Origin: Natronococcus sp. CG52
GTDB taxonomy: Archaea; Halobacteriota; Halobacteria; Halobacteriales; Natrialbaceae
DNA: 64,000 bases
Direction: 5' to 3'
Assembly (NCBI RefSeq): GCF_023913515.1
Contig: NZ_CP099391.1
Span: 62,001 to 126,000, forward strand
The translations under genes were made by a program, and so were the position numbers. Below the pieces are notes generated by a model. It had not been told where the DNA came from, searched no databases, and saw only the letters and a program-made list of their open reading frames with translations. Shown piece by piece: positions 27,231 to 32,557 of this stretch; positions within the stretch are counted from its first letter, which is position 1; each line of letters begins with the position of its first letter.

Positions 27231-30200
27231 ATGCGCGAGGCAGACGAACGCTACTTCCACCGACTCGAGTCCCAGTTGGACGATGCGTTCGACGTGGCCG
27301 AGCGGGCCAAAGAACGCGGCGGGGATCCCGTGCCCGAGGTCGAGATTCCGGTCGCGAAGGACATGGCCGACCGCGTCGAGAACATCCTCGGGATCGACGG
27401 CGTCGCCGAACGCGTCCGCGAACTCGAGGGCCAGATGAGCAGGGAGGAGGCGGCGCTCGAACTCGCGGAGGACTTCGCCGAGGGTCGAGTCGGTGACTAC
27501 GAGACGAAAGCCGGCAAGGTCGAGGGGGCGGTCCGGACGGCCGTCGCACTGCTCACGGAGGGCGTCGTCGCCGCACCGATCGAGGGGATCGACAAGGTCG
27601 AGATCCTCGAGAACGACGACGGTACCGAGTTCGTCAACGTCTACTACGCCGGTCCGATCCGCTCGGCGGGCGGAACCGCCCAGGCGCTGTCGGTCCTCGT
27701 GGCGGACTACACCCGTGCGCTCGTCGGAATCGAGCAGTACGACGCCCGCAGCGAGGAGGTCGAACGCTACGCCGAGGAGGTCGGCCTCTACGACAAGGAG
27801 ACGGGCCTGCAGTACACGCCGAAGGACAAGGAGACGAAGTTCATCGCCAAACACCTCCCGATCATGCTCGACGGGGAGGCGACGGGCGACGAGGAGGTCT
27901 CCGGCTTCCGCGACTTAGAGCGCGTCGACACCAACAACGCCCGCGGCGGGATGTGTCTCGTCATGGCCGAGGGGATCGCCCTCAAGGCGCCGAAGATCCA
28001 GCGCTACACGTCGGCTCTCGACGAGATCGACTGGCCCTGGCTGCAGGACCTCATCGACGGCAACTACGGCGGTGACGAGGGGGCGGACGCCGACGCGGAC
28101 GACTCCGACGAGAGCGACGCCGACGCGGATGCGGAAACGGAAGCGGACGAAGCCGACCCCGATGCGAGCGACGAAGCGGCGGGACCGCCCCGGGTCGAGG
28201 AGTCGACGAAGTTCCTCCGCGACCTGATCGCGGGCCGACCGGTCTTCTCTCACCCCTGTGCCAACGGTGGGTTCCGGCTCCGGTACGGCCGAGCGCGCAA
28301 TCACGGCTTCGCGACCGCCGGCGTCCACCCCGCCGCGATGCACCTGGTCGACGACTTCCTCGCGACCGGCACCCAGATCAAGACCGAGCGACCCGGGAAA
28401 GCGGCCGGCGTCGTCCCGGTCGATTCGATCGAAGGACCGACGGTCAAACTCGCCAACGGCGACGTCCGGCGGGTCGACGACCCCGAGGAAGCCCTCGAGA
28501 TCAGAAACGGCGTCGAAAAGATCCTCGACCTCGGCGAGTACCTCGTCAACTACGGCGAGTTCGTCGAGAACAACCACTCGCTCGCGCCGGCGTCGTACAC
28601 CTACGAGTGGTGGATGCAGGACCTCGAGGCTGCGGGCGCGGACGTTCAAGCGCTTCGGGACGACCCCCGGATCGACCTCGAGTTCCCGCCGGCCGAAAAC
28701 GCCCTCGAGTGGGCCCGCGAGTACGACGCGCCCCTCCACCCCGAGTACACCTACCTCTGGCACGACCTCTCGGTCGAGGACTTTTGCACCCTCGCCGAGG
28801 CCGTCGCGGACGGCCGGATCACGGCCGACGGCGAGACGCTCGTCCTCGGGCGCACCGACACCGTCCGCGCTGCGCTCGAGCGGATCGTCATCGAACACCG
28901 CCAGCGAGAGGACCGCCTCGAGATCGACGACTGGAAACCGTTCGTTCGCTCCGTCGGCTGCGAGATTCGACGGACGGCGACCGACGGCGCCTCCGAGCGA
29001 TCGGCCGGCGCCGCGGACGGCCCCGAACTCGACGAACCGGAAATCGGCCTCGAGCGAACCTGGGCCGACGACGACCTCTCCGAGCGCGCTCGGACCTGGG
29101 GGCACGAGATGGAGGGTGACAACGCAATCGAGGCGGTCAACGAGGTGGCTCCCTTCGCGGTCCGCGAACGCGCACCGACGCGAGTCGGGAACCGGATGGG
29201 CCGACCCGAGAAGTCCGAACGCCGGGATCTGAGCCCCCCGGTCCACACCCTCTTTCCGATCGGCGAGGCCGGCGGCGCACAGCGAAACGTCGCGGACGCG
29301 GCTAAACACGCCGAGACGATGTCGGACACGCCCGGCGTCGTCGAACTCCAGATCGGCCGCCAGCGGTGCGAGTCCTGCGGAACGGAGACGTTCGAGAACC
29401 GCTGTCCGGACTGCGGCGACCGAACGACGCCCGACTACCGCTGTCCGGACTGCGACAGCCGAATCGAACCCGACGAGGCCGGGCGCGTCGAGTGTGGCCA
29501 CTGCGAGGTCGAGGCGACCTGCGTCGAGCGGCGCGAGATCGACATCAACGAGGAGTATCGCGACGCGCTCGAGTCGGCCGGTGAGCGGGAGAACGCCTTC
29601 GAGATCCTGAAGGGCGTCAAAGGGCTGTCCTCGGCGACCAAAATCCCCGAACCGATCGAGAAGGGTGTTCTGCGGGCGAAACACGACGTTTCGTCGTTCA
29701 AAGACGGCACCGTCCGTTACGACATGACCGACCTGCCCGTCACCTCGGTCCGGGCGAGCGAACTCGACGTCGACGTCGGCCAGTTCCAGGCGCTCGGCTA
29801 CGAGGAGGACATCCACGGCGAACCCCTCACGCACGAGGATCAGCTGGTCGAACTCAAGGTTCAGGACATCGTCCTCTCGAACGGCGCGGCCGAGCACATG
29901 ATGCAGACCGCCGCCTTCATCGACGACCTGCTCGAGCAGTACTACGGCCTCGAGCCGTTCTACGAACTCGAGGATCGCCAGGACCTGGTCGGCGAACTCG
30001 TCTTCGGGATGGCACCCCACACGAGTGCAGCTACTGTCGGAAGGGTGATAGGATTTACGAGCGCTGCGGTCGGATACGCACATCCGTACTTTCACGCCGC
30101 TAAGCGGCGTAATTGTGACGGAGACGAGGATTGCGTGATGCTTCTGATGGACGGCCTGTTGAACTTTAGTGAAAGCTTCTTGCCGGATCAACGAGGCGGG

Positions 30201-30860
30201 AAGATGGACGCACCCCTGGTCATGTCCTCGCGCATCGATCCCTCCGAGATCGACGACGAGGCGCACAACATGGACATCGTCTCGCGGTATCCGCGGGAGT
30301 TCTACCTCGCCACCCTCGAGCAGGCCGATCCCGAGGAAGTCGATATCCAGATCGGCGAAGATACCCTCGGAACCGACGGCGAGTACACCGGGTTCGAGCA
30401 CACTCACGACACCACCGACATCGCGATGGGTCCCGATCTGTCGGCGTACAAGACGCTGGGATCGATGATGGAGAAGATGGACGCCCAGCTCGAGCTCTCG
30501 CGAAAGCTCGCGGCGGTCGACGAGACCGACGTCGCCGAGCGGGTCATCGAGTACCACTTCCTGCCGGATCTGATCGGCAATCTCCGGGCGTTCTCCCGAC
30601 AGGAGACGCGGTGTCTCGACTGCGGGGAGAAGTTCCGTCGGATGCCCCTGACCGAGACCTGCCGGGAGTGTGGCGGCCGCGTGAACCTCACCGTCCACCA
30701 GGGATCGGTCAACAAGTACATGCAGACGGCGATCGAGGTCGCCGACGAGTACGACTGTCGAACGTATACGAAACAGCGCCTCGAAGTCTTAGAACGGGCG
30801 CTCGAGAGCGTCTTCGAGAACGACAAGAACAAACAGTCCGGAATCGAGGACTTCATGTAA
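27231..30860 (+). CDS. polC: DNA polymerase D large subunit (DP2), intein-free
   Basis: Catalytic subunit of archaeal replicative polymerase D. 1209 residues. N-terminal READERYFHRLESQLDDAF, an acidic insertion (about 285-320, Asp/Ala/Glu), zinc-type clusters CESCG...CPDCG...CPDCD...CGHC (about 705-765), the active-site block APHTSA...AKRRNCDGDEDCVMLLMDGLLNF (about 928-980; catalytic N961, D963, D965), and a C-terminal CLDCGEKF...CRECGG ribbon. The NCDGDED site is a known intein insertion point in archaeal DP2, but here the host sequence is uninterrupted. Codons 931-990 are sharply different from the rest (see findings). Cotranscribed with the PPC gene. Confidence 0.97.
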   Translation: MREADERYFHRLESQLDDAFDVAERAKERGGDPVPEVEIPVAKDMADRVENILGIDGVAERVRELEGQMSREEAALELAEDFAEGRVGDYETKAGKVEGAVRTAVALLTEGVVAAPIEGIDKVEILENDDGTEFVNVYYAGPIRSAGGTAQALSVLVADYTRALVGIEQYDARSEEVERYAEEVGLYDKETGLQYTPKDKETKFIAKHLPIMLDGEATGDEEVSGFRDLERVDTNNARGGMCLVMAEGIALKAPKIQRYTSALDEIDWPWLQDLIDGNYGGDEGADADADDSDESDADADAETEADEADPDASDEAAGPPRVEESTKFLRDLIAGRPVFSHPCANGGFRLRYGRARNHGFATAGVHPAAMHLVDDFLATGTQIKTERPGKAAGVVPVDSIEGPTVKLANGDVRRVDDPEEALEIRNGVEKILDLGEYLVNYGEFVENNHSLAPASYTYEWWMQDLEAAGADVQALRDDPRIDLEFPPAENALEWAREYDAPLHPEYTYLWHDLSVEDFCTLAEAVADGRITADGETLVLGRTDTVRAALERIVIEHRQREDRLEIDDWKPFVRSVGCEIRRTATDGASERSAGAADGPELDEPEIGLERTWADDDLSERARTWGHEMEGDNAIEAVNEVAPFAVRERAPTRVGNRMGRPEKSERRDLSPPVHTLFPIGEAGGAQRNVADAAKHAETMSDTPGVVELQIGRQRCESCGTETFENRCPDCGDRTTPDYRCPDCDSRIEPDEAGRVECGHCEVEATCVERREIDINEEYRDALESAGERENAFEILKGVKGLSSATKIPEPIEKGVLRAKHDVSSFKDGTVRYDMTDLPVTSVRASELDVDVGQFQALGYEEDIHGEPLTHEDQLVELKVQDIVLSNGAAEHMMQTAAFIDDLLEQYYGLEPFYELEDRQDLVGELVFGMAPHTSAATVGRVIGFTSAAVGYAHPYFHAAKRRNCDGDEDCVMLLMDGLLNFSESFLPDQRGGKMDAPLVMSSRIDPSEIDDEAHNMDIVSRYPREFYLATLEQADPEEVDIQIGEDTLGTDGEYTGFEHTHDTTDIAMGPDLSAYKTLGSMMEKMDAQLELSRKLAAVDETDVAERVIEYHFLPDLIGNLRAFSRQETRCLDCGEKFRRMPLTETCRECGGRVNLTVHQGSVNKYMQTAIEVADEYDCRTYTKQRLEVLERALESVFENDKNKQSGIEDFM
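30024..30205 (+). other. Low-GC recoded patch over the DP2 catalytic motif
   Basis: About 60 codons inside polC use ATA, AGG, TTG, AGT, TTT, GCT, CAT, AAT, TGT and CTT, which are rare in the flanking codons of the same gene where nearly every third base is C or G. The protein sequence stays fully conserved across the active site. The patch ends as abruptly as it starts. Confidence 0.8.
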
Positions 30861-31021: not shown

Positions 31022-32557
31022 GTGTCACACGATAACTGTTGTAGTGGCGGTATCGCACCCGATCCGGACGACATTCCATCCATCGCGACCGAACGCCGGT
31101 CGTTCATCAAGGGAGTCAGTGCGTTAACCGGCGGCGCCGTACTCGGTGGCCGGGCGGGCGCCGACGACGAGGCGGACGATACAGGCGACGACCGGGTGGC
31201 GGAGTGCCGAAACGCGATCGTGTTCATCCACGACGGGATGGGGCCGACGCAGGTCACGGGCGCCCGGTACCTGAAGGCCTATCAGGAGGATTCCGACCAG
31301 TTCCCGATGAACGCCGATCCGGCGGAGACGCCGCTTCACATGGATCGTCACGAGGCCCACGGGACGATGACTGTCTTTCCGGACGATCCGAACGAGGTCG
31401 TCATCGACTCGGCGGCCGGAGCGACGAGTCCCGGCGTCATCGACTGCGCCGCGTCGGCCACCGGGATGGGCGCCGGCGTCAAGACGTACAACGGCGCGAT
31501 CGGCGGTATCAGAAACGAGGACGGGGAGTTCGTCCCGACGGAGACGATCCTCGAGGCGGCGCGCGACGCGGGGCTCGCGACGGGACTGGTAACGACCACG
31601 CGGATCACTCACGCAACGCCGGCGGCGTTCGCGGCGCACGTCCCGCACCGATCGATGGAGGACGAGATCGCCGAACAGTACATCGAGGAGGCCGACGTCG
31701 ACGTGCTCCTCGGCGGTGGGAAGGCCCACTTCGATCCGGACCAGCGTGACGACGGGAAGGACCTGCTCGGCGCCGCGGAGCGGGAGGGGTACCGGATCGT
31801 CGAAACGGCGGAGGAACTCTCCGACGTCGACCAGATGCCCGTTCTCGGACTGTTTACGGAGGACGACAGCCACCTGAACTACTATCTCGACCGGCAGTCC
31901 GGGACGACGCAGCCGGGGCTGGTCGGGATGACGAACAAGGCGATCGAGTTACTCTCCCGACACGACGAGGGCTTTTTCGTCATGGTCGAGGCGGGCCGCG
32001 TCGATCACTGCGGTCACAAGAACGATCCGGCGATTCTCGACGAGCAACTGGAGGGCGACCGAGCGGTCGGCGCCTGCCTGGACTTCGCACAGGGCGACGC
32101 GACGGCCCCGACGACCGTCGTGACGACCGCCGACCACGAGTGCGGCGGCTTCTCGCTCGGCCGGGACGGGATCTACAACGTCGACTACGAGATGATCGAC
32201 GCGCTCGAGGCGAGCGTCACGGAGGGAATCGTGCCGGCGATCGACGAGGAGGTCGAGTCGGTCACGGACCTCCGGCGAGTCATGTCGGAGGTCGCGGGGA
32301 TCGAACTCGAGGACGTGGATCGAAACCACTCCGAAGCAGATACGTATCGTGCGATCGATCTCGGGCCGCTCTACGCCGAAATTCCCGCACTGCGAAACAT
32401 GCTCAACCGACAGATGCTGATCGGCTTCACCTCGCACGGTCACACCGGCGTCGACGTTCCGCTGTACGCCGACGGTCCGAACGCCGAATTCTTCAATCGA
32501 CCGCGGGACAACACCGACATCGCCGACGTGATGGCCGACGCGCTGGGAATCAAGTAG
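31022..32557 (+). CDS. Alkaline phosphatase (PhoA family) with Cys in place of the nucleophilic Ser
   Basis: Secreted phosphomonoesterase. 511 residues from GTG at 31022. Tat signal ERRSFIKGVSALTGGAVLGG (RR about 27-28). Metal and catalytic residues of the PhoA family are present: HDGMG (Asp of site 2), THATPAAFAAH, EAGRVDHCGHKND (E, D, H ligands), TADHECGG (D-H) and TSHGHTG (last His). The nucleophile site reads IDCAASATGMGAGVKTYNG, where E. coli PhoA has DSAASAT; spacing to VKTYNG is the same, so Ser102 is replaced by Cys (codon TGC). A second DSAAGAT lies 13 residues earlier. AT-rich promoter region upstream. Confidence 0.9.
   Translation: MSHDNCCSGGIAPDPDDIPSIATERRSFIKGVSALTGGAVLGGRAGADDEADDTGDDRVAECRNAIVFIHDGMGPTQVTGARYLKAYQEDSDQFPMNADPAETPLHMDRHEAHGTMTVFPDDPNEVVIDSAAGATSPGVIDCAASATGMGAGVKTYNGAIGGIRNEDGEFVPTETILEAARDAGLATGLVTTTRITHATPAAFAAHVPHRSMEDEIAEQYIEEADVDVLLGGGKAHFDPDQRDDGKDLLGAAEREGYRIVETAEELSDVDQMPVLGLFTEDDSHLNYYLDRQSGTTQPGLVGMTNKAIELLSRHDEGFFVMVEAGRVDHCGHKNDPAILDEQLEGDRAVGACLDFAQGDATAPTTVVTTADHECGGFSLGRDGIYNVDYEMIDALEASVTEGIVPAIDEEVESVTDLRRVMSEVAGIELEDVDRNHSEADTYRAIDLGPLYAEIPALRNMLNRQMLIGFTSHGHTGVDVPLYADGPNAEFFNRPRDNTDIADVMADALGIK

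Follow-up and report, generated by a model that had tools for sequence, protein, structure and literature searches.

Textbooks give Ser102 as the nucleophile of alkaline phosphatase. This serine is stated to be conserved in all alkaline phosphatases other than the Thr-type SPAP of Sphingomonas (PMC3145672), a natural enzyme that uses Thr89, has a private Cys adjoining that residue and lacks the active-site Arg. A cysteine in this place occurs in the laboratory-made E. coli PhoA variant S102C, which keeps all ligands and is catalytically competent, as the initial annotation of our locus had stated, with the Cys bound to an active-site zinc and a mechanism that is possibly not strictly analogous (PMC8938923). 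The arylsulfatases (PF00884), another family of the alkaline phosphatase superfamily, also encode a Cys at the nucleophile position, which becomes formylglycine within a CxPxR-type motif. The closest known relative of the protein described here is the Halobacterium salinarum alkaline phosphatase 2x98, a PhoA-family haloarchaeal enzyme of the twin-arginine translocation (Tat) type with a single Ser motif, DSAAAATAFASG. In a 64,000-nucleotide stretch of Natronococcus sp. CG52 (contig NZ_CP099391.1, positions 62,001 to 126,000, forward strand; hereafter the window, in whose numbering coordinates are given), we found a PhoA-family gene in which a 12-residue insertion at the active site is best read, from the sequence, as having arisen by tandem duplication of the nucleophile motif, with Ser130 kept in copy 1 and Cys142 in copy 2. 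The gene and the two copies are located as follows.

31022 to 32557, plus strand: phoA-family gene, an open reading frame with a Pfam PF00245 match; the gene for the large subunit of DNA polymerase II (27231 to 30860) lies ahead of it
31400 to 31435, plus strand: repeat copy 1, VIDSAAGATSPG, residues 127 to 138, with Ser130 (TCG, 31409 to 31411), from sequence, alignment, shuffle test and codon comparison
31436 to 31471, plus strand: repeat copy 2, VIDCAASATGMG, residues 139 to 150, with Cys142 (TGC, 31445 to 31447), from sequence, alignment and shuffle test, with a helix predicted from residue 142

The gene has a GTG start and encodes a protein of 511 amino acids that profile, ligands and fold identify as a PhoA alkaline phosphatase. 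The PF00245 profile matched it with 276.6 bits (cut-off, 24.4), aligning residues 63 to 509 with profile positions 2 to 422 of 423, and the 4.74 Mb genome has no other PF00245 protein. Its closest sequence match was 2x98 (E 5.7e-107), and a Foldseek search with an AlphaFold2 model (mean predicted local distance difference test score [pLDDT], 74) returned only alkaline phosphatases as top matches, again with 2x98 as the best (E 6.6e-44).

The active-site stretch of the window protein reads FPDDPNEV-VIDSAAGATSPG-VIDCAASATGMG-AGVKTYNGAIGG. In PhoA proteins, the helix after strand 2 begins with a single Asp-Ser motif, and in the window protein and its clade we found Asp-Ser followed by Asp-Cys. 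The downstream motif, D-C-A-A-S-A-T, lies at 31442 to 31462 (D141 to T147), at the distance from VKTYNG that DSAASAT has in E. coli-type enzymes, just as the initial annotation had described, and its Cys codon is indeed TGC. The upstream D-S-A-A-G-A-T, which that annotation had placed 13 residues earlier in a related context, is present in such a context and begins at D129, so that the distance from motif to motif is exactly 12 residues. When the 12-mers 127 to 138 and 139 to 150 were compared, 8 of 12 positions were identical, a level reached at that lag in none of 2000 shuffles of the protein. Compared with 2x98 (DDPYETTTDSAAAATAFASGVKTYNGAIGG), both flanks match (PDDPxE...VKTYNGAIGG) and the window protein is exactly 12 residues longer. 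The canonical position falls on Ser130 when counted from the N-terminal flank (FPDDPNE-VVI-DS) and on Cys142 when counted from the C-terminal flank; the annotated replacement of Ser102 by Cys stands for the second count and is not a simple substitution. We read the insertion as a tandem duplication because its length equals the repeat lag, which is 12 residues for main-clade proteins and 28 for a diverged paralogue, L060. This equality and the shuffle test rule out a plain Ser-to-Cys substitution next to a chance upstream DSAAGAT. A sequencing error is also ruled out, since the Cys is encoded as TGC or TGT in 7 more full-length genes from 6 other genomes and in one metagenome-assembled genome (MAG). 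The other described systems differ in the same respect: 2x98 has no insertion, E. coli S102C has neither an insertion nor a second Ser motif, and the motif of SPAP is not duplicated. In the open literature that we searched, we found no natural Cys nucleophile or doubled nucleophile motif in alkaline phosphatases and no publication describing a doubled motif in an alkaline phosphatase of Natronococcus.

We searched sets of relatives and of the order, phylum and family, with one GTDB contig scan; scans of viral contigs added few homologues and served only for a deeper alignment. The doubled motif was found in nine proteins, from six genomes in the genus of the window, with the named Natronococcus records L032-L035 among them, from genome G179, which has two copies, and from the MAG G193, the latter two representing a second haloarchaeal family of the same order. 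All nine insertion-bearing proteins have Asp-Ser and then Asp-Cys, so Cys is fixed in one small clade and always accompanied by the upstream Ser. The homologues without the insertion have a single DS or GS motif, with Ser in all 75 that could be scored, which rules out Cys as a general haloarchaeal feature. In a tree built after removal of the insert, a single branch (100/97) separates the doubled-motif proteins from all others, and among them L060 is sister to the rest. The clade therefore has one origin. A further cysteine, Cys330, is found in every doubled-motif protein (9/9) and in none of 77 other homologues, 2x98 having Ala in its place; given the single origin, the co-occurrence of Cys330 with the Ser/Cys doubling counts as one event and not as nine.

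The paralogue L060 (L060:6283-7815, from genome G179, which also has an orthologue of the window gene) reads VTDSGAAATALSTIGTGENEHACTDCDGVTDCAAAATSMSGGVKAYNG and carries its own Ser-then-Cys doubling with a lag of 28. A hidden Markov model built from Ser-type proteins only matched L060 twice, with profile positions 147 to 170 covered by both matches. Its spacer contains C-x-x-C-x-x-x-x-x-C, in which the last Cys is the motif Cys (ACTDCDGVTDC), a pattern that suggests a metal-binding or disulphide-bonded loop. Before the motif Asp (residues 128 and 140 in the window protein), main-clade proteins have Ile or Val in either copy, L060 has Thr in either copy, and the two copies thus seem to have changed together, through gene conversion or through separate duplications.

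We also compared codons among seven orthologues. Across D129 to G138 (DSAAGATSPG), we found no amino acid change and twelve synonymous variants, and copy 2 showed a few changes, at residues 144, 145 and 149, and none at D141, C142, A146 and T147. These substitution patterns show, at the codon level, that both motifs are constrained and that purifying selection acts on both copies. The related genome G005 retains only a degenerate C-terminal remnant (L065:5491-5934) that matches residues 370 to 509 and sits between the polymerase gene and a DUF7130 gene, the same place as the window phosphatase. Among the genus genomes searched, no orthologue was found in G001 and G008. This absence and the remnant in G005 indicate that members of the genus can do without the gene.

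The initial annotation had reported that the zinc and magnesium ligands are all retained, and the alignment bears this out. The Zn1, Zn2 and M3 ligands and the active-site Arg (D71, T199, R210, E323, D328, H332, D371, H372 and H474) all fall in the expected alignment columns, and the metal ligands are those of 2x98. The E. coli equivalences in the following list are ones that we presume from alignment to E. coli-type proteins and from what is generally known of the E. coli enzyme.

31232 to 31234, plus strand: D71, E. coli D51, a Zn2/Mg ligand, in an invariant column
31610 to 31618, plus strand: H197-A198-T199, E. coli D153-A154-T155, the Mg/M3 site, from alignment columns
31649 to 31651, plus strand: R210, E. 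coli R166, the phosphate-binding Arg, present in 9/9 clade members and 77/78 alignment rows
31988 to 32017, plus strand: E323-A-G-R-V-D328-H-C330-G-H332, with the M3 Glu, the Zn1 ligands D328 and H332 and, between them, Cys330 (32009 to 32011), from alignment columns
32132 to 32137, plus strand: D371-H372, E. coli D369-H370, Zn2 ligands, from alignment columns
32441 to 32443, plus strand: H474, E. coli H412, a Zn1 ligand, from alignment columns

With the metal site in place, the question is which copy fills it. In main-clade proteins, copy 1 has Ser-Pro-Gly (Pro137-Gly138) in what would be the second turn of its helix, and copy 2 runs unbroken into GVKTYNG. The AlphaFold2 model used above, the second of two, was built from 26 sequences; in it, a helix starts exactly at C142 (model residues 86 to 95), and residues 121 to 138, Ser130 included, have pLDDT values below 50. 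Structure prediction thus weakly favours Cys as the nucleophile. Several observations weigh on the other side. The alignment behind this model (A5) had already placed the helix of the homologues on copy 2, and the first AlphaFold2 model, built from 18 sequences aligned to copy 1, put a weak helix on copy 1 with pLDDT values of about 30 to 40; this first model (mean pLDDT, 57) is unreliable at the elbow and was set aside. In silico deletion of either copy gave near-equal scores against a Ser-type profile, with the Ser version 0 to 6 bits better. In addition, the N-terminal flank FPDDPNE-VVI stands at canonical spacing to Ser130, copy 1 is better conserved than copy 2, and no activity report for a doubled-motif phosphatase was found in the literature searched. 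On balance, sequence and model lead us to lean slightly toward Cys142, rather than Ser130, as the residue that occupies the pocket.

The explanation that we propose starts with a single tandem duplication, in the ancestor of a small haloarchaeal clade, of the segment that bears the nucleophile: the end of a beta-strand, the Asp-Ser pair and the first helix turns. Copy 2 would now supply the full nucleophile helix and place Cys142 in the Ser102 position, facing Zn2, and copy 1 with Ser130 would have been displaced to form a short conserved loop that leaves the same strand end and lies next to the metal site. The enzyme would hydrolyze phosphate monoesters with the usual two Zn ions and one M3 metal. 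By analogy with E. coli S102C, Cys142 would be a thiolate ligand of Zn2 and probably also the phosphoryl acceptor, with Ser130 as a possible auxiliary or alternative acceptor. Natronococcus species inhabit high-pH environments, where a thiol would be largely ionised. We consider it quite probable that the window protein is an active phosphatase. The fuller description, a Tat-exported, metal-dependent PhoA-type phosphatase in which Cys142 holds the canonical place facing zinc and a Ser130 loop lies beside it, has in our judgment about an even chance of being right. A tentative and less probable extension is that both the Ser and the Cys motifs work, either as a Ser/Cys switch of strand register or as a thiolate-zinc phosphatase with a Ser helper, in which Cys330 would add sulphur at the metal site.

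The observations that favour copy 1 could instead mean that Ser130 is the nucleophile in its canonical place and that copy 2 is extruded, with Cys142 serving structure or regulation, for example as an additional metal ligand or in a disulphide, possibly with Cys330. The canonical spacing of the N-terminal flank, the ten codons of copy 1 free of amino acid change and the slightly higher score of the Ser-retaining hybrid against the Ser-type profile in most comparisons are all consistent with this arrangement, as is L060, whose copy 1 looks fully canonical and whose spacer adds a CxxC. SPAP offers a precedent, having a disulphide that adjoins the catalytic residue and involves an inserted segment (PMC3145672), although the SPAP-type features themselves, a Thr nucleophile and a missing active-site Arg, are not found in the window protein. 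However, in the main clade, Pro137-Gly138 breaks the helix that would be required after Ser130, and Ser130 is disordered in the better AlphaFold2 model, so that we regard this arrangement as possible but doubtful. Both copies also share the strand-end residues at their start (V-I-D or V-T-D), fit the canonical profile nearly equally well and are strictly kept in every member of the clade, as would be expected if either could slide into the strand end to give Ser-in and Cys-in registers that differ in activity or metal affinity and perhaps respond to redox state or zinc. The structural evidence is one static model of moderate confidence, and we think such sliding, attractive as the idea is, unlikely.

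The rearrangement of the nucleophile segment and the dispensability of the gene in G005, where a remnant survives, could mean that the duplication abolished catalysis and left a metal- or phosphate-binding pseudo-enzyme. This is improbable, as all members keep the metal ligands and R210, changes nearby are synonymous with few that are non-synonymous, and even E. coli S102A and S102L are still phosphomonoesterases, with activity reduced several hundred-fold (PMC8938923). Conversion of Cys142 to formylglycine, as occurs in sulfatases, is extremely unlikely: the Asp is followed by C-A-A-S-A, in which the Arg that a CxPxR/CxAxR motif calls for is missing, and PF03781, the formylglycine-generating enzyme family, gave no match in this genome and was matched in 4 of 14 control genomes. 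On these two grounds, a formylglycine sulfatase identity was rejected, radical S-adenosylmethionine type maturases not having been searched for.

Outside the catalytic domain, the protein carries a motif that we take, from established knowledge of the RRxFxK motif, to be a Tat export signal.

31094 to 31114, plus strand: Tat export motif RRSFIKG, residues 25 to 31, with both Arg of the twin pair unchanged throughout alignments A1 and A2

A Cys-Cys pair (NCC or GCC; residues 6 and 7, 31037 to 31042) precedes this motif and is conserved in orthologues L003-L008 and L010; it is not present in L060 or in Ser-type homologues, and the segment that contains it is expected to be cleaved off. In the neighbouring DNA polymerase II large subunit gene, the three relatives L034, L064 and L065 have inserts of 1.5 to 1.9 kb near residues 960 to 1030 that are probably inteins; unlike these, the polymerase gene in the window is uninterrupted.

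If the proposed explanation is true, an essential catalytic segment has been duplicated and re-specialised inside a fold, leaving a fixed Cys and, 12 or 28 residues upstream of it, a second motif with Ser. The window protein would then be a natural counterpart of S102C, and a handful of point mutants would allow Cys and Ser to be compared directly in one bimetal site. A small haloarchaeal group that keeps both motifs unchanged thus provides a naturally occurring test of whether Ser or Cys performs the chemistry.
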